Shown here piece after piece: positions 5,109 through 50,353 of a stretch of 64,000 nucleotides of DNA. The notes under the pieces were generated by a model. The model had not been told where the DNA came from, made no database searches, and worked only from the letters and a program-made list of their open reading frames with translations. The number at the start of each line of letters is the position of its first letter. The first letter of the stretch is position 1. The translations under genes were made by a program, and so were the position numbers. Origin of the DNA: an uncultured Coriobacteriia bacterium (GTDB lineage: Bacteria > Actinomycetota > Coriobacteriia > Coriobacteriales > QAMH01); the NCBI GenBank assembly GCA_948466335.1, contig CAOKAE010000003.1, positions 62,001-126,000 on the forward strand, written 5' to 3'.

Positions 5109-5144
5109 GTCACCCCCCCCTTCTCTCGAAATGACGGTCATTCA

Positions 5145-5220: not shown

Positions 5221-6927
5221 GTGGCAGGCTCAACACGGCAGCTCAGCGTTGACGAGCTGCGCACGCAGCTCTCCCAACGCCTGCGCTCCAACGCCGCCTT
5301 TTCCCAGACCGTCTACCAGGAGCAGCCCATCATCATGACGGGCAGCCAGCTCAAGAGCTTCGTGCCAGACGCCATACGCGAAGCCCACCAAATCGCGCGT
5401 CGCCAATACGCGCAAAACCACAGCGTCGCCGACGTCTTCTACGAGCAGGCGCGCCTGCTTGCCGGCTACGAGGACGATTTCGAGTTCACCGGCAGCTTCT
5501 CGCGCTACTTCCCCACCTACGAGGACATGAGCAACGAGCAACTGCGTGGCTACTTCGCCTGGCGCACCAAGGTCCGTCACGGGCAAATCGAAGAGGGTTC
5601 GCTCTCCTTTGCCTACGTCTACCTCTACGAGCTCATCAACCTCGTGGGCGTGACAAGCGCCCGGGAGGCCTACGATGTAATGCTCGCCTTCGGCTCCACG
5701 TACCGGCACTTCGATACGCGATTCGGCAAGCTCTTTGACGCCTGGCTCGATGACTTCGTCATCTACTATGGCCTGGATGCGGGCTTGCTGCACACACGCT
5801 CCTTCGCCCAGCGTGACGATGCCTTCGACGTACTGCTCCATCACGAGGAACATTCGGACGGCGTTCTCTTCGATGCCCTCGTCACGCTTGGCAGCTACGC
5901 CATCGGCGCGTCTCCCTTCTTCCTCGAACACGAGCCCGAGCTCAGGCAGCTCGTGGCCCATGGCTATCGCAGGGCCCACGAACATCACGCCAAGCTCAAG
6001 ACCACGCTTCCCGCCAAGCTTTCTGGTCGCATGAAAAACGAGCGCATCTGGCTCTTCGAGCGGGCCGTCTTCGCCAACCCGCTTGCCGTGGAGAATGCTG
6101 AATATCAAATTAGCGCCCATGACACGGTGTACTGCCGCAATGGGGCCTGGTTCAGGACACGCTACGAAAACCTCGAATACCCGCTTGCCTGGGTCACGCA
6201 CCTACTCGAGACTTGCGAATGCGTGCTGCGCGACGCCTATGCCTACCCCAACACGCTCGAGCGCACGCTCACCACCAAGTACCTCGTGAAGGCCGTCGAG
6301 AACCAGGCCGCGCAGATGGCCGAGGAGGCACGCCTGCGCGCACAACGGGCCGTGTCCATCGACTTCTCGCAGCTCGACCGCATCCGCAAGGCGGCAGACG
6401 AGACCTGCGAGAAGCTCATCGTGGAAGACGAGAGCGATGTGGCCGAGCCAGTACGTCCCTCTGTCATTTCGAGCGAAGTCGAGAAATCCCGCCCTTCGCG
6501 TTCCATTGGCAGTATCGGTGAAGATTTCTCCACTCCGGCGCTTCGCGCCTCCGGTCGAAATGACAATGGGGACGGGCTTCGCGCTTCCAACTCCTGTCAT
6601 TTCGAGCGCAGCGAACGAAGTGAGCGGAGTCGAGAAATCTCGTTCTTTGCCTCCGGTCGAAATGACAGCGAGCCGATAGATGTGCCATCCCCGTATGCGC
6701 CCACACTCTCATCCGAAGAATCCGAGCTTGTTACATGCTTGCTACATCGGTCTTCGGTGCGCGAGTTCGAACGCGCGCACCATTGCATGGCATCCGTGCT
6801 CGTCGACTCCATCAACGACAAGCTCTACGACGAGTTCGCCGACATCTGCATCGACGCGAGCGGCGATGAGCCCGTCATCATCGAAGACTACGCAGACGAG
6901 CTGCGATCCCTGCTCGGCATCGACTAA
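5221..6927 (+). CDS. TerB_N/TerB_C-domain protein, first gene of an ATPase-helicase operon
   Basis: The start is the GTG at 5221, preceded by AAGGAGG nine bases upstream; an earlier in-frame ATG (4948) lies inside carB. 568 aa. Residues from about 96 (YFPTYEDM...LRGYFAWRTKVRHG, then FAYVYLYELIN) match the TerB_N domain. The last 80 residues (NDKLYDEFADICID...DEPVIIEDYADELRSLLG) match TerB_C. Residues 414-483 are encoded by two family-1 palindromic repeats inserted without breaking the frame, in the linker between the domains. Its stop is eight bases before the ATPase start. TerB_N/TerB_C proteins are known near SF2 helicases and P-loop ATPases and are thought to belong to DNA-processing or defence systems; biochemistry is unknown. 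Confidence 0.85.
   Translation: MAGSTRQLSVDELRTQLSQRLRSNAAFSQTVYQEQPIIMTGSQLKSFVPDAIREAHQIARRQYAQNHSVADVFYEQARLLAGYEDDFEFTGSFSRYFPTYEDMSNEQLRGYFAWRTKVRHGQIEEGSLSFAYVYLYELINLVGVTSAREAYDVMLAFGSTYRHFDTRFGKLFDAWLDDFVIYYGLDAGLLHTRSFAQRDDAFDVLLHHEEHSDGVLFDALVTLGSYAIGASPFFLEHEPELRQLVAHGYRRAHEHHAKLKTTLPAKLSGRMKNERIWLFERAVFANPLAVENAEYQISAHDTVYCRNGAWFRTRYENLEYPLAWVTHLLETCECVLRDAYAYPNTLERTLTTKYLVKAVENQAAQMAEEARLRAQRAVSIDFSQLDRIRKAADETCEKLIVEDESDVAEPVRPSVISSEVEKSRPSRSIGSIGEDFSTPALRASGRNDNGDGLRASNSCHFERSERSERSREISFFASGRNDSEPIDVPSPYAPTLSSEESELVTCLLHRSSVREFERAHHCMASVLVDSINDKLYDEFADICIDASGDEPVIIEDYADELRSLLGID
6462..6565 (+). repeat. Family-1 palindromic repeat, copy 1, in frame inside the TerB gene
   Basis: 104 bp bounded by TGTCATTTCGA (6462-6472) and its exact reverse complement TCGAAATGACA (6555-6565), with inner GTCGAGAAATC / GATTTCTCCACTC arms. 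It is read as part of the protein (VISSEVEKSR...RASGRND) in a different frame from copy 2. Confidence 0.9.
6595..6667 (+). repeat. Family-1 palindromic repeat, copy 2, in frame inside the TerB gene
   Basis: 73 bp with the same terminal inverted repeats (TGTCATTTCGA 6595-6605, TCGAAATGACA 6657-6667). It is translated as CHFERSERSERSREIS..., the same peptide and frame as the copy inside ribF at 36362. Confidence 0.9.
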
Positions 6928-6935
6928 GGAGCATC

Positions 6936-8282
6936 ATGGCCACGAAGATTCCCAAGCGCATCGCATCCACCGTACTCAACTCCCTCAAGGGCGGCGTCGT
7001 GCCGCGCGTGGGGCTGCCCTACGTGGCCGTGGGCCGCGAGGCCGAAATCGACGCCCTGCTCCACGACGTCGACATCATCGCCGATGGCGGTGCGACCTTC
7101 CGCTTCATCGTCGGAAAGTACGGCAGCGGCAAGAGCTTCCTGCTGCAGACCATCCGCAACTACGCCATGGACCGCAACTTCGTCGTCGTCGATGCCGACC
7201 TCTCCCCCGAACGTCGTCTGCAGGGCAGCCATGGCCAGGGCCTTGCCACCTACAAGGAGCTCATCCGCAACATGTCCACCAAGACGCGCCCCGAAGGCGG
7301 TGCGCTCACCCTCATCCTCGACCGCTGGATTTCCGGCGTGCAGCAAGACGTGCTCGCCGAAGGGCTCGAACCAGGCACGGAGGCCTTCGCCCAACGCGTC
7401 GAGCTGCGCATTCACGAGGTCGTGGCCTCGCTGTCGGAACTCGTGCACGGATTCGACTTCGCCCAGCTGCTCGTCATGTACTACCGCGCCTACGTCAACG
7501 ATGATGACGACACCAAGGCCAAGGTCATCAAGTGGTTCCGCGGCGAGTACGCCAACAAGACCGAGGCCCGGGCAGAGCTCGGCGTGCGCATCATCATCAC
7601 CGATGACGACTGGTACGAGTACGTCAAGCTCTTCGCCTCGTTCCTCGTGCAGGCGGGCTACGCGGGCCTGCTCGTGCTCGTTGACGAGCTCGTGAACATC
7701 TACAAGATTCCCAACGCCATCACGCGCCAGTACAACTACGAGAAGATCCTCACGATGTACAACGACACGCTGCAGGGCAAGGCGCAACACCTCGGCATCA
7801 TCATGGGCGGCACGCCGCAATGCGTCGAGGACAAGCGTCGCGGCGTCTATTCCTACGAGGCGCTGCGCAGCCGCCTTGCCGAAGGCCGCTTTGCCGGTCA
7901 GCAGTACAAGGACATGCTCGCGCCCATCATCCGCCTCGTGCCGCTCACCCACGAAGAGCTCCTCGTCCTAACAGAAAAGCTCACGCACATCCACGCCCAG
8001 CTCTTCGACTACGAGCCACGCCTCACAGACGCGCAACTTGCGAGCTTCATCAAGACCGAGTTCGAGCGCGTCGGCGCGAGCACGCACATCACGCCGCGCG
8101 AGGTCATCCGTGACTTCATCGAGCTTCTCGACATCATGTACCAGAATCCCGATGCGCAGATGGACGATCTTCTTGCCAGCGACGAGTTCGCCTATGCGGC
8201 AGATGCAGGTGCACCCGATGGCATGAGCGTGAGCGCCCAGCAGGGCGAGCGCCAGGAAAACTTCTTCGAGTTCACGCTCTAA
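6936..8282 (+). CDS. BrxD/BrxC-like P-loop ATPase (DUF2791 family)
   Basis: 448 aa. The ATG follows GGAGCATC, with the RBS touching the previous stop, so it is translationally linked to the TerB gene. Walker A is GKYGSGKS at residues 60-67. Walker B is LLVLVDEL with Asp250-Glu251, followed by a conserved MYNDTLQGKAQHLGIIMGG region. This layout fits the BREX-system ATP-binding family (BrxD; PF10923), which in type 2 BREX pairs with the helicase BrxHI. No PglX, PglZ or other BREX effector is present here. Probable role: an ATP-driven DNA-binding partner of the next gene's helicase. Family membership is well supported; the role is inference. Confidence 0.88.
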   Translation: MATKIPKRIASTVLNSLKGGVVPRVGLPYVAVGREAEIDALLHDVDIIADGGATFRFIVGKYGSGKSFLLQTIRNYAMDRNFVVVDADLSPERRLQGSHGQGLATYKELIRNMSTKTRPEGGALTLILDRWISGVQQDVLAEGLEPGTEAFAQRVELRIHEVVASLSELVHGFDFAQLLVMYYRAYVNDDDDTKAKVIKWFRGEYANKTEARAELGVRIIITDDDWYEYVKLFASFLVQAGYAGLLVLVDELVNIYKIPNAITRQYNYEKILTMYNDTLQGKAQHLGIIMGGTPQCVEDKRRGVYSYEALRSRLAEGRFAGQQYKDMLAPIIRLVPLTHEELLVLTEKLTHIHAQLFDYEPRLTDAQLASFIKTEFERVGASTHITPREVIRDFIELLDIMYQNPDAQMDDLLASDEFAYAADAGAPDGMSVSAQQGERQENFFEFTL

Positions 8283-8295
8283 AGAAAAGGTGCCC

Positions 8296-10632
8296 ATGGA
8301 CGTCTTCAGCTCATACGCCCCCTTCATCCAGGACTTCATCTACCGTAACGGCTGGGAGAGCCTGCGCTCGGTGCAGGTCGCCGCCGCCGACGCCATCTTC
8401 AACACCGAAGATAACGTCCTTCTCGCCGCATCGACGGCCTCGGGCAAGACCGAGGCGGCCTTCTTTCCCATGCTCTCGAAGCTCGACGAGGACCCCTCGG
8501 CAAGCGTCGGCGTGCTCTACATCGCCCCGCTCAAGGCGCTCATCAACGACCAGTTCGGCCGTCTCAACGATCTGTGCGAAGAGGCCGAGATTCCCGTGTG
8601 GCGCTGGCACGGTGACGTCGCGCAATCGCGCAAGACCAAGCTGCTCAAGCACCCGCGCGGCATCTTGCAGATCACGCCCGAATCCCTCGAGGCGCTGCTC
8701 CTGCACAAGCACTCCCATATCCCCAAGCTCTTCGGCGACCTGCGCTTCATCGTCATCGACGAGATACACTCCCTCATGCGCGCCGACCGCGGAGGCCAAT
8801 GCCTCTGCCTCATCGAGCGCATGACGCGTCTGGCCGGCTGCAACCCCAGGCGCATCGGGCTATCCGCCACCATCGGCGACCTCGAGCTCGCCGGGCGCTT
8901 CCTGGGCGCGGGCTCGGGCCGCGACACCATCATTCCGCGCATCGAGGACACGCAGCAGCGCTGGCGCCTGTCCATGGCGCACTTCTACGTGGGCGAGGGC
9001 GCCGAGGAAATGGCCGCACCAATACCATCCGGCGTAAATGGCGACGAAGAGGATGCGAAGCGGAGGCTAAGGGAGCAACCCAGTGATTGTGCTGATGGAG
9101 AAACGCGCCTTCCCCCTGCCGAACCCGCGACCGACGCCGCGCCCCTCGCCGCCGACCCCGGCCTGGGGTACATCTTCGAGCATACCCGCGGCAAGAAGTG
9201 CCTCATCTTCTCCAACTCGCGCGAGGAGGCCGAGGGCGTCACCACCACCCTGCGTCACTACTGCGAGGCCACGCACCAGCCCGACCGCTTCCTCATCCAC
9301 CACGGCAACCTCTCGTCCGCCGTGCGCGAGAGCGCCGAGGACGTCATGCGCGACGAGGAGCTTGACCTCACCACGGTCACCACGGCCACCCTCGAGCTCG
9401 GCATCGACATCGGTCGCCTCGAGCGCGCCTTCCAGATCGACGCGCCTTTCACCGTAAGCGCGTTTCTGCAGCGCATGGGCCGCACGGGGCGCCGTGGCAC
9501 GCCACCCGAGATGTGGTTCGTCATGCGCGAGGACCGTTCCGAGCCACGCACCACGTTGGGCGCGACCATCCCCTGGAAGCTCTTGCAGGGCATCGCGCTC
9601 GTCCAGCTCTACCTCGAGGAACGCTGGGTCGAGCCACCGCGTCTGGACCGCCTGCCCTACAGTCTGCTCTATCACCAGACCATGGCCACACTTGCGAGCG
9701 GTGGCGAGATGACGCCGGCCGAGCTCGCCGCCCGTGTGCTCACCCTGGGCTACTTTCACCGCGTGAGCAGCGAGGACTTCCGCACCCTGCTGCACCACCT
9801 CATCGAGACCGACCACATCCAGCTCACCGAGGAGGGCGCCCTCATCGTGGGACTCGCCGGCGAGCGCGTCATCAACAGCTACCGCTTCTACGGGGTCTTC
9901 CAGGAAAACGAGGAGTACACCGTCCGCAGCGAGTCCCAGGAGCTCGGCACCATCGTGCTACCTCCGCCCGTGGGCGAAAAGCTCGCCATCGCGGGTGCCA
10001 CCTGGCTCGTCGAGGAGGTCGACCACAAGCGGCATCTCGTCTACGCCACGCAGGTCAAGGGACAGGTCGCGGCCTACTTCGGCGATGTCCCGGGCGACAT
10101 CAACACGGTCGTGCTCGAGCGCATGCTGCGCGTGCTCATGGAAGATGCCGACTATCCCTACTTGCTCGATAACGCCCGCGGCCGCCTTGCCCAGGCGCGC
10201 TCAACCGCCCGCGCGGCCCATCTCGATCACGTGCCCCTCGTGAGACTCGGCGGTGACACCTGGGGGCTCTTCCCCTGGCTCGGCAGCTACGCCTTCCTCG
10301 CGCTCGAACGCTTCCTCAAGGTCAAATGCGCAGACCAGCTCCAGCTCAAGGGCCTGGATTCGTCGCGCCCCTATTTCATGGAGTTTCGCATGAAGGGCGA
10401 CGAGCAAGACTTCTACGACGTGCTCGCGCAGCAGGCGCTCACGCCCTTCGACCCGCTCGACCTCGTCTACGACGGCGAGGTTCCCATCTTCGAGAAGTAC
10501 GACGAGTACGTGCCGGTCGAGCTCATACGCAAGGGCTTCGCGATGAGCGTCCTCGACATCGACGGCATGCTCAAACGCGTGCGCCAATGGTGCGGCCTGC
10601 CAGAGGAAGGGTCGCGGCAACTACCGGGCTAG
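8296..10632 (+). CDS. Lhr/BrxHI-like DEAD/DEAH-box SF2 helicase
   Basis: I prefer the ATG at 8296 (AAAAGG five bases upstream) over the in-frame GTG at 8290, which would sit on that RBS. 778 aa. Motif I TASGKT at 47-52, motif II DEIH at 155-158, motif III SAT in GLSATIGD, and motif VI GRTGRRG from residue 395 give a complete two-lobe helicase core. A long C-terminal Lhr-type region follows. Residues about 245-275 form an acidic, polar insert with codons unlike the rest of the gene (AAT, AGG, CTA, AGT, TGT, GGA). It is the third gene of the SOS-boxed operon, eight bases or more after the ATPase. No nuclease domain is seen. Confidence 0.9.
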   Translation: MDVFSSYAPFIQDFIYRNGWESLRSVQVAAADAIFNTEDNVLLAASTASGKTEAAFFPMLSKLDEDPSASVGVLYIAPLKALINDQFGRLNDLCEEAEIPVWRWHGDVAQSRKTKLLKHPRGILQITPESLEALLLHKHSHIPKLFGDLRFIVIDEIHSLMRADRGGQCLCLIERMTRLAGCNPRRIGLSATIGDLELAGRFLGAGSGRDTIIPRIEDTQQRWRLSMAHFYVGEGAEEMAAPIPSGVNGDEEDAKRRLREQPSDCADGETRLPPAEPATDAAPLAADPGLGYIFEHTRGKKCLIFSNSREEAEGVTTTLRHYCEATHQPDRFLIHHGNLSSAVRESAEDVMRDEELDLTTVTTATLELGIDIGRLERAFQIDAPFTVSAFLQRMGRTGRRGTPPEMWFVMREDRSEPRTTLGATIPWKLLQGIALVQLYLEERWVEPPRLDRLPYSLLYHQTMATLASGGEMTPAELAARVLTLGYFHRVSSEDFRTLLHHLIETDHIQLTEEGALIVGLAGERVINSYRFYGVFQENEEYTVRSESQELGTIVLPPPVGEKLAIAGATWLVEEVDHKRHLVYATQVKGQVAAYFGDVPGDINTVVLERMLRVLMEDADYPYLLDNARGRLAQARSTARAAHLDHVPLVRLGGDTWGLFPWLGSYAFLALERFLKVKCADQLQLKGLDSSRPYFMEFRMKGDEQDFYDVLAQQALTPFDPLDLVYDGEVPIFEKYDEYVPVELIRKGFAMSVLDIDGMLKRVRQWCGLPEEGSRQLPG

Positions 10633-20882: not shown

Positions 20883-20915
20883 ATGAGACAAACTTGTCTG
20901 ACCAATTTGTCTCAT
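20883..20915. repeat. Family-2 palindrome, copy 2
   Basis: ATGAGACAAA and TTTGTCTCAT arms around CTTGTCTGACCAA. It starts 10 bases upstream of the radical SAM start codon, in the leader. Confidence 0.88.
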
Positions 20916-35441: not shown

Positions 35442-36491
35442 CTACTTGCCTCCCAGGTGCTCACGCACCCACGCGATATTGCCCATCACCGTCTCGATGA
35501 GCTCGTCCTTCGTCTCGAACACGCGCGGCCCGCGCAACCACTGCTCGAACTCGATGCGAATCTCCCTGCCGTAGAGATCGCCGTCGAAGTCGAGCAGATG
35601 CGCCTCGACGGGAGCGGTCGCCTCGGCAAAGCTCCTGGCGACGCCCACGTTGACCGCAGCCGCATAGCGCACGCCCTCGACGATGGCGTAGGCGCCGTAG
35701 ACACCCTCGCGCGGCAGCATCGTCTCGCAGCCCGAGAGGTCGAGGTTGGCCGTCGCGAAGCCGAAGCCGTCGCCCGCGCCGCGCCCGTGCACGATCGTGC
35801 CCGTAATGGCATGGAGCCTGCCGGCAAGGAGGCGCTTTGCCTGCGCGACCTCCCCCTCGCGCAGCTCGGCGCGTATGCGCGTGGCCGAGATGACCTCGCC
35901 ATCCTCCTCGACGAGCTCGCAGGCGACGTAGGTGCAGTCGTGCGCAAGAGCCCATCGCTCCAGATCCTCGGCCGTGCCGCTCGCCTTATAGCCGAAGCGG
36001 AAATCCGAGCCGGTGAAGATGGCGCGGGGTCGCACGACGCTGGCGAGGAAATCGAGGAAGTCCAAGGGCGGCATCGAGAACAGCTCGGGCCCCGTCGTCA
36101 ATGCCAGCACGCCGCCCGAGGTCTGCTCGGCGGCCATCGCGAGACGCTCCTCGTTGGAGAGGAGCTTGCCGAAGCTCGGATCGTCACGACGAAAGACCTC
36201 GTCGGGATCGCGGTCGAAGGTCACGGCGACGAGGGGTGCGTCGATTTCCCGTGCCAGTTCGCGGGCCTGGGCGAAGATGGCACGGTGCCCGATGTGCATG
36301 CCGTCGAAGACGCCTATGACGAGCACGGCATCATTGTCGTCTCGACCGAGCGGCCCCTTCCTGTCATCTCGACCGAGCGAAGCGAGTGGAGAGATCTCGT
36401 TCTTGCCCGTAGCGGTATTCGAGATTTCTCGACTCCGCTCACTTCGTTCGCTACGCTCGAAATGACAAAATTCGACCGGGTCGCAGCGCAT
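35442..36491 (-). CDS. ribF: Bifunctional riboflavin kinase/FAD synthetase with in-frame repeat insertion
   Basis: The start is the ATG at 36491, 14 bases after the truB stop; longer reading frames overlap truB. 349 aa. It converts riboflavin to FMN, then FAD. The FAD synthetase domain has VLVIGVFDGMHIGHR and ISATRIRAELREGEV; the flavokinase domain has GTIVHGRGAGDGFGFATANL and the catalytic EAHLLDFDGDLYGREI. The normal lead-in of about ten residues is interrupted: residues 9 to about 54 (CHFERSERSERSREI...) are encoded by a family-1 palindromic repeat and a partial echo of it, placed just before VLVIGVFDG. The enzyme core appears intact, so the extra N-terminal segment is probably tolerated. 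Confidence 0.93.
   Translation of the reverse strand: MRCDPVEFCHFERSERSERSREISNTATGKNEISPLASLGRDDRKGPLGRDDNDAVLVIGVFDGMHIGHRAIFAQARELAREIDAPLVAVTFDRDPDEVFRRDDPSFGKLLSNEERLAMAAEQTSGGVLALTTGPELFSMPPLDFLDFLASVVRPRAIFTGSDFRFGYKASGTAEDLERWALAHDCTYVACELVEEDGEVISATRIRAELREGEVAQAKRLLAGRLHAITGTIVHGRGAGDGFGFATANLDLSGCETMLPREGVYGAYAIVEGVRYAAAVNVGVARSFAEATAPVEAHLLDFDGDLYGREIRIEFEQWLRGPRVFETKDELIETVMGNIAWVREHLGGK
36362..36467 (-). repeat. Family-1 palindromic repeat, copy 3, in frame inside ribF
   Basis: 106 bp. On the minus strand it begins TGTCATTTCGA (36467-36457) and ends in the variant TCGAGATGACA (36372-36362). Its first 16 codons (CHFERSERSERSREIS) equal those of the second copy in the TerB gene, in the same frame and orientation relative to the gene. 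A short echo of the end (TCTCGACCGAGCG) recurs at about 36340. Confidence 0.9.
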
Positions 36492-36504
36492 GATGTTGCC
36501 CGTC

Positions 36505-37476
36505 CTAGCCAACGCCGACAACACCTCCGGGAATGACCGTCGCGGGACGACATGTCCCGGCGACGAAGCTGTAGACCGCGAGTAACCTGTGGTCACGCAC
36601 GCACGAGACCATACCCTCGCCCACGGCGACGTCCGTGAGCTCGCGACCGTTGGCCACGCATTCGGCCTGTCGCTCGCCAAGCTCGATGACGGGAAATCCC
36701 AGCAGCTTGGCCGGGTCACACCAGGGCAGGGCGCATCCCGCCTCGGCACAGTGCGCGAGGTCGGCAAGGGAGCAGGCCTCGCCGACGGCCGTGGTCGCGA
36801 CCGAGGTGCGGCGCAACGAGCCAAGGTGGGCGCCGCAACCCAGATACGTCCCGATGTCACGGGCCAGGGCGCGGATGTAGGTGCCCTTGCTCACGTCGAA
36901 GTGGACGTCCCAGAACGGGAGCTCGCGCACGAGCACGTCACCATCGGCCCGGACGATTTCGGCGTGTTGCACGCCCGTGCCCACGAGGCGCGCCCCGTAC
37001 ACGGTGACATGGCGCAGCTCGAGATCGAGGCAGGTCCCCTCGCGCGCCGCCTTGTATGCGACGACGCCGTTCTTCTTGATGGCCGAATAGGCGGGCGGCA
37101 GCTGCTCGAGCTCTCCCGTGAACTCGTCGAGGACGGCCCGGGCATCGGCCGCACCCATGATCTGCGCAAGCTCGTCATCGCACGCGCTGGCGAGCACACG
37201 CCCCTGGGCGTCATCCGTGTCCGTGGCAACGCCGAAGACGATGCGCGCGTCATACTCCTTGTCATGGTCGGTGAGATATTCGGACAGACGCGTGGCCGCT
37301 CCCACGCCCACGAGCATGAGACCGGTGGCGGCCGGATCGAGCGTCCCGGCATGGCCCACACGTCGCTCCCCCGTGACCTGGCGCACGCGGTTGACCACGT
37401 CGTGCGAAGTCATTCCGTAGGGCTTGTCGAGCGCGAGCACGCCGCATAGTCCGCTGGCACCACGCCTGCGGCTCAT
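36505..37476 (-). CDS. truB: tRNA pseudouridine-55 synthase
   Basis: The start is the ATG at 37476, overlapping the DHH gene stop (ATGA). 323 aa. It isomerises U55 in the tRNA T loop. GVLALDKPYGMTSHDVVNRVR opens the fold, and RRVGHAGTLDPAATGLMLV contains the catalytic Asp. DKEYDARIVFG and VSKGTYIRALARDIG are family-conserved. The C-terminal 60 residues form the usual PUA-like tail. It is translationally coupled to nrnA and followed closely by ribF, the order seen in many bacteria. Confidence 0.96.
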   Translation of the reverse strand: MSRRRGASGLCGVLALDKPYGMTSHDVVNRVRQVTGERRVGHAGTLDPAATGLMLVGVGAATRLSEYLTDHDKEYDARIVFGVATDTDDAQGRVLASACDDELAQIMGAADARAVLDEFTGELEQLPPAYSAIKKNGVVAYKAAREGTCLDLELRHVTVYGARLVGTGVQHAEIVRADGDVLVRELPFWDVHFDVSKGTYIRALARDIGTYLGCGAHLGSLRRTSVATTAVGEACSLADLAHCAEAGCALPWCDPAKLLGFPVIELGERQAECVANGRELTDVAVGEGMVSCVRDHRLLAVYSFVAGTCRPATVIPGGVVGVG

Positions 37477-50257: not shown

Positions 50258-50292
50258 AATGAGACAAATGTGTCTGACCAATTTGTCTCATT
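50258..50292. repeat. Family-2 palindrome, copy 4
   Basis: AATGAGACAAAT and ATTTGTCTCATT arms (12 bp) enclose GTGTCTGACCA. It lies 14 bases after the aminopeptidase stop. Confidence 0.9.
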
Positions 50293-50320
50293 GCGCAGGT
50301 CAGGGCTGAAGACACTTCAC

Positions 50321-50353
50321 AATGAGACAAATACCCTGTGTATTTGTCTCATT
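50321..50353. repeat. Family-2 palindrome, copy 5 (variant loop)
   Basis: AATGAGACAAATAC and GTATTTGTCTCATT arms (14 bp) enclose CCTGT; this copy lacks the GTCTGACC core. It sits between two convergent genes and may serve as a bidirectional terminator. Confidence 0.85.

Follow-up and report, generated by a model that had tools for sequence, protein, structure and literature searches.

CGTC-tagged REPs (Di Nocera et al. 2013, PMC3733652) are built of small units that carry at one end an unpaired tag, often TGTC or CCTC, with a stem of 8-9 bp starting with AT, a loop of 4-5 nt and a CCA-like tail. They occur mainly as dimers, are mostly intergenic and have no transposase; many of their intragenic units lie in replication and repair genes, and the superfamily takes in RPE-4, RPE-6 and the Neisseria dRS3 repeat (PMC3733652). 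Rickettsia provides the best-known palindromes that code for protein, and scattered other genomes have been reported to contain them too. As summarised in a review of MITEs (PMC10969869), the Rickettsia palindromic elements (RPEs; Ogata et al. 2000, 2002) are palindromes of about 100-150 bp that sit in frame in unrelated genes, and the same review calls similar protein evolution in other prokaryotes conceivable. We describe here a palindromic family of Coriobacteriia found in the first gene of a Shango operon, a kind of anti-phage system whose activity has experimental support, shown for another Shango system (PMC10250203). Very probably the repeat is a non-autonomous mobile palindrome, present in frame in two copies in a predicted disordered loop of SngA, where it serves as tolerated filler.

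Results

The window, a stretch of 64,000 nt from an uncultured Coriobacteriia bacterium (genome G000), contains a complete Shango operon at 5221-10632, with SngA, SngB and SngC all recognised by PADLOC in one operon. The first gene, sngA (5221-6927, + strand), has a GTG start and encodes a 568-aa protein with TerB_N and TerB_C domains (Pfam E 2e-25 and 1e-19; PADLOC SngA E 1.4e-59); it carries the insert and is followed on the same strand by intact genes for a BrxC/BrxD-type ATPase (sngB, 6936-8282; PADLOC E 2e-195) and a DEAD/DEAH Lhr-like helicase (sngC, 8290-10632; PADLOC E 1e-272). By these profile matches the TerB-domain gene at 5221 is the SngA of a complete Shango anti-phage system, which resembles the described one (PMC10250203; PADLOC SngABC) in combining a TerB protein, a BrxC/D-type ATPase and a DEAD/DEAH helicase, intact and in the same order, and differs from it in that its SngA linker is made longer by repeats.

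Two palindromic repeat copies lie within sngA, which confirms the observation in the first-pass annotation of two repeats with identical 11-bp terminal inverted repeats: exact arms (TGTCATTTCGA/TCGAAATGACA) occupy 6462-6472, 6555-6565, 6595-6605 and 6657-6667. Copy A of this TGTC-ATTTCGA element (6462-6565, + strand, 104 bp; match to the covariance model R1 with E 7e-15) codes for SVISSEVEKSRPSRSIGSIGEDFSTPALRASGRND and is nearly full length, being without 18 bp that are present in the orthologue of the sister species G006. After a 29-nt spacer (6566-6594, + strand) comes copy B (6595-6667, + strand, 73 bp; R1 match with E 6e-9), which has an internal deletion and codes for CHFERSERSERSREISFFASGRND. 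The copies have the same orientation and an identical 19-bp right end, 102 nt apart, and copy B plus the spacer amounts to 102 bp, or 34 codons. Together they encode residues 414-483 of the 568-aa open frame, in two frames as had been claimed: the first base of copy A is the third of a codon, and that of copy B the first. A single degenerate arm (CGTCATTTCGA, 5126-5136, - strand) is found in the intergenic DNA upstream of sngA; allowing at most one mismatch, the arm has seven matches in the window versus 0.77 expected from shuffles, of which 0 of 100 reached seven. Folded as RNA, copy A reaches -41.9 kcal/mol (z -4.3); one half-unit alone folded no better than shuffles.

The insert had been placed exactly between two domains, and this part of the first reading did not hold. 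Pfam envelopes extend over residues 65-230 for TerB_N and 363-562 for TerB_C, so the element-coded residues fall within TerB_C, in a variable internal loop. Among 45 aligned SngA proteins, the near-invariant residues end at L399 and resume at L496, and an AlphaFold2 model based on this alignment has pLDDT below 50 essentially only at 403-491, with values above 90 for most other residues. Because this low-confidence stretch is flanked by helices that end at 399 and begin at 498, the insertion site is predicted to be a disordered loop that joins two helical portions of TerB_C.

Comparison with orthologues that lack the insert bears out its extraneous character, the native linker being about 60 aa shorter in most. 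Across 75 sequences the linker measures 26-109 aa with a median of 36; that of the window protein is 99 aa long, of which 70 come from the repeats, and without the element-coded residues it would count 29 aa. The SngA of G006, 91% identical to that of the window, shares copy A and its frame; there copy A follows tandem 39-bp arm units and contains the additional 18 bp. Copy B is missing from G006 as far as the locus is assembled, the two halves of the gene lying on two contigs that each end in a repeat array. All readable differences between the two loci (18 bp, 102 bp and the 39-bp units) are multiples of 3. No empty sngA site was found in close relatives, because the nearest species carries the element as well and its locus is split over two contigs. 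In a second sister species, G005, the linker is unrelated and of nearly equal length (93 aa), which might have told against an insertion; about 46 of its residues, however, derive from another palindromic repeat with further copies in G005, and since that linker thus contains a different interspersed palindrome, the idea is strengthened and not refuted. In two other long linkers (106-109 aa; L153, L167) no palindromes were noticed.

A genome-wide search for the arm, a check proposed along with the first reading, identified a repeat family: the 1.89-Mb genome has 86 exact matches to TGTCATTTCGA (38 forward and 48 reverse) and none to the reversed control, and with one mismatch allowed there are 122 matches compared with 6 for the control. 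In a sample of 300 genomes of the class, with G005 and G006 outside it, the count of 86 in G000 stands against at most 5 in any of the 299 others. With the R1 model, G000 yields about 27 distinct full-length copies (49 matches before second-strand duplicates were dropped) and G006 about 48; G005 has three weak copies, and in four other genera of the family there were none. Judged by these counts, the TGTC-ATTTCGA family is a burst in one lineage. All the closely related genomes are drafts, two or more of them assembled from metagenomes, with contigs that break at these repeats. Searches of Rfam and of plasmids with the element gave no match, and a literature text search for the core TCATTTCGA yielded no description of such a repeat among the matches listed. 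A pattern scan found a similar half-unit, TGTCATTTCGA..GGAGAAATCTC, in seven IMG/VR viral contigs (L291-L297), so the repeat type exists beyond the genomes compared here.

In G000 the arms are paired in 24 distinct elements, most of them outside recognisable genes, with in-gene copies in five genes. A typical paired element of 104-128 bp consists of TGTCATTTCGACCGGAG-hairpin-GGAGTGGAGAAATCTC, a variable centre and then GAGATTTCTCGACTCCGCTCACTTCGTTCGCTTCGCTCGAAATGACA, and TGTC stands at both outer ends in 17 of 17 aligned full-length copies. The half-units begin with ATTTC and end with GAAAT, and they are bulged; their loops measure about 20-25 nt and their tail is CTC. Compensatory changes (GGCGC/GCGCC, GGGGC/GCCCC and GCCGC/GCGGC) occur in the inner stem of the left half. 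By these features the family comes closest to the CGTC/TGTC-tagged REP superfamily. The two share a CGTC/TGTC tag at the end, next to a stem that starts with AT, along with frequent dimers, a mostly intergenic distribution with some intragenic units and the lack of a dedicated transposase. The stem, loop and tail depart from the described pattern, the stem here being imperfect and bulged, the loops some 20-25 nt instead of 4-5 and the tail CTC instead of CCA, and the half-units of about 45 bp, the frequent tandem arm arrays and the Coriobacteriia host are further differences. As the tag, dimer and intragenic features are shared but the short loop is not, we class the family as a variant of that known kind.

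The likeness to RPEs drawn in the first-pass annotation held in one respect: a palindromic repeat of about 100-150 bp is found in frame in several unrelated genes, and more than one frame can be used. Descent from an RPE did not follow, the two being likened by habit and description only, and the present family differs in its host phylum, in that only a minority of copies lie in genes and in the growth of its in-gene arrays by steps of 27, 36 or 39 bp. That the repeat is a true RPE, or came from Rickettsia through horizontal transfer, we regard as extremely unlikely: the shared habit of an in-gene palindrome read in more than one frame, and the membership of RPE-4 and RPE-6 in a superfamily whose tag is often TGTC (PMC3733652), would suit such an origin, but long variable loops and 104-128-bp dimers contrast with the superfamily's stems of 8-9 bp and loops of 4-5 nt, and within the genomes searched its expansion is limited to two species of Coriobacteriia.

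Beyond sngA, the family is present in frame in dnaX, ftsY and ribF and twice in a CoA-activase gene (contig C18); these gene names were assigned from sequence motifs and orthology. Long frames that run antisense to genes and likewise cross the element (e.g., L012) and frames without a recognisable protein (e.g., L036 and L056) were left out of the insertion count. Within the window, the frame holding ribF (FAD synthetase/riboflavin kinase, recognised by sequence motif; 35445-36890, - strand) probably includes upstream codons that are not translated, and has a copy in the N-terminal part of RibF (36362-36467, - strand) that codes for CHFERSERSERSREISNTATGKNEISPLASLGRDDR, is common to G006 and is absent from G005, G001, G002, G003 and G004. 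A tandem extra arm (36335-36345, - strand) lies 27 bp, or 9 codons, from it. The ftsY copy is in the C-terminal tail, and the in-frame copy in dnaX of G000 (contig C1) is 125 bp long. A near-identical dnaX copy (L214/L215) lies after the motif DDTPPWE in G000 and before it in G006, where it has tandem arms at both ends, as if it had moved or been differentially lost within one linker. Where the region is readable, orthologues of dnaX, ftsY and ribF outside G000 and G006 are without the element. The orientation of in-gene copies relative to the gene is always the same; the frame VISSEANEVSGVEKS is used by most of them, and CHFERSERSERSREIS by the RibF copy and by SngA copy B.

Spacings between neighbouring same-direction arms are multiples of 3 in 13 of 13 in-gene cases (27, 36 or 39 bp) and in 10 of 41 elsewhere (Fisher p = 1e-6, or 7e-4 with each gene array counted once, a figure given because the units of one array are not independent); curation of the group from elsewhere was incomplete, and any in-gene cases left in it would make the test conservative. 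This pattern indicates a reading-frame constraint. Differences between G000 and G006 in three shared in-gene copies are distributed 7/5/9 over codon positions 1/2/3, with no clear third-position excess, and selection on the coded amino acids is not supported. Lengths that keep the frame, together with apparently unconstrained amino acids, fit a translated, tolerated filler, and the peptide is presumably both made in the cell and neutral. The proposal that few stop codons in several frames favour survival inside genes fared less well, as the 42 full-length copies have on average 2.14 of 6 frames open and dinucleotide shuffles 2.31 +/- 0.16, so that composition accounts for the open frames.

Alternatively, the element-coded segment might have been recruited as a useful linker that tunes SngA by its length or charge, so that its retention would be adaptive instead of tolerated. 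The element is retained in two species, and lineages without it also have long linkers, G005 having filled the same one with another palindrome; we nevertheless consider recruitment unlikely, given that the amino acids appear unconserved and that in most Shango systems SngA does with a linker of about 36 aa. The fold of copy A bears on a different possibility, in which the element splits or silences sngA, whether by a hairpin that halts transcription or translation, by production of SngA in two pieces or by decay to a pseudogene. Intergenic REPs may serve as RNA hairpins (PMC3733652). Against such an effect in sngA, the 568 codons are free of stops with conserved residues on both sides of the insert, and changes in in-gene arrays are always multiples of 3. 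The same elements also reside in dnaX and ftsY, which are essential in most bacteria, and we judge splitting or silencing to be very unlikely.

Evidence for mobility of the tolerated palindrome comes from G006, in which the joined flanks of 18 G000 copies were searched. Four copies have an empty site there, seen as a single match across the junction, and most of the other tested sites are filled in both genomes. At one empty site (L040) the two genomes agree exactly on the right as far as the junction and are similar on the left; at the remaining three the junction is imprecise, with additional short stretches that differ. None of the four empty/filled pairs shows a target-site duplication, so that of the features of MITEs the element has the perfect 11-bp terminal inverted repeats without the duplication. 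To the view that there is no mobile element, and that the palindrome formed in place through replication slippage in a low-complexity linker, we give practically no credence: the tandem 36-39-bp arm units suggest that slippage acts in these arrays, but a local origin is already contradicted by the genome-wide family, whose sequence recurs at unrelated loci by the dozen, has hairpins that covary and is absent from some of the corresponding sites of a sister species.

With RAYT-linked REPs and MITEs (ERIC, Coxiella QMITE1 and others) the family has in common that it is a small non-autonomous palindrome, and a second REP family of the same genome directly follows a RAYT-type gene; it differs from them in that no linked transposase and no target-site duplication were seen. 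The two Y1 transposase genes of the genome are at least 10 kb from the nearest copy listed, neither is flanked by the TGTC-ATTTCGA family and one is tied to another repeat. The RAYT-type genes of the genome find no support as movers of this family, RAYT1 being followed by the different REP AATGAGACAAA..TTTGTCTCATT.

Discussion

As a whole, the first-pass interpretation is partly supported. We propose that a REP-dimer-like element of about 104-128 bp, in which two imperfect hairpin half-units face each other with TGTC at the outer ends, reached high copy number in two closely related species of Coriobacteriia, presumably moved by a trans-acting enzyme such as an HUH/RAYT-type transposase, with slippage presumably generating the tandem arms. 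Most copies lie between genes, and those seen within genes leave the frame intact and are found in linkers, loops or termini. One copy may have entered the disordered internal loop of the SngA TerB_C domain and been read through as filler, and a second, deleted copy would then have joined it in frame, by either insertion or local duplication.

The family offers a clear case from Actinomycetota, with the element in an anti-phage gene as well as in the housekeeping genes dnaX and ftsY. Array steps that are multiples of 3 in genes and not outside them provide a simple sequence-only test for inserts kept as translated sequence, and annotators should be aware that such linkers are repeat-derived. 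The repeats also help to explain the contig breaks at repeat-bearing genes in these genomes.

Two other palindromic families of these genomes likewise sit in frame within genes. The second family, AATGAGACAAA..TTTGTCTCATT, is found directly at the stop of the RAYT-type Y1 transposase gene (L032:892-2300, G000 contig C1) and in the window at 20884, 50260-50294, 50323-50353 and 59989. It has 43 perfect copies in G000, 48 in G006 and none in five other genomes of the family, and lies in frame within comF and the CoA-activase gene. The comF genes of G000 and G006 (L282/L283) have different subtypes in the same loop, two REPs in G000 and a 33-bp subtype in G006; the loop has no insert in G003 (L284) and other extra residues in G001, G002 and G004. 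A third family, with the core GTTCCGCACGAGC..GAGCTCAGGACTG (L091, L100, L094, L096, L093), occurs in frame in several genes: sngA and sngC in G005, a membrane-protein gene in G001, and hemW in G000 and G006, the orientation in one of these two genomes being opposite to that in the other. It is tempting, though doubtful, to suppose that in this Coriobacteriaceae clade unrelated palindrome families are a standing source of disordered segments that recur in the loops of SngA, ComF and HemW across species and grow or shrink in codon steps. If so, they would give rise to fast length variation in proteins, an anti-phage defence protein included. A further short repeat, GGGGACAGACCC, recurs between genes (flanks of L006 and L008; G000 contig C1) and may be the REP of the second Y1 transposase gene (L033).
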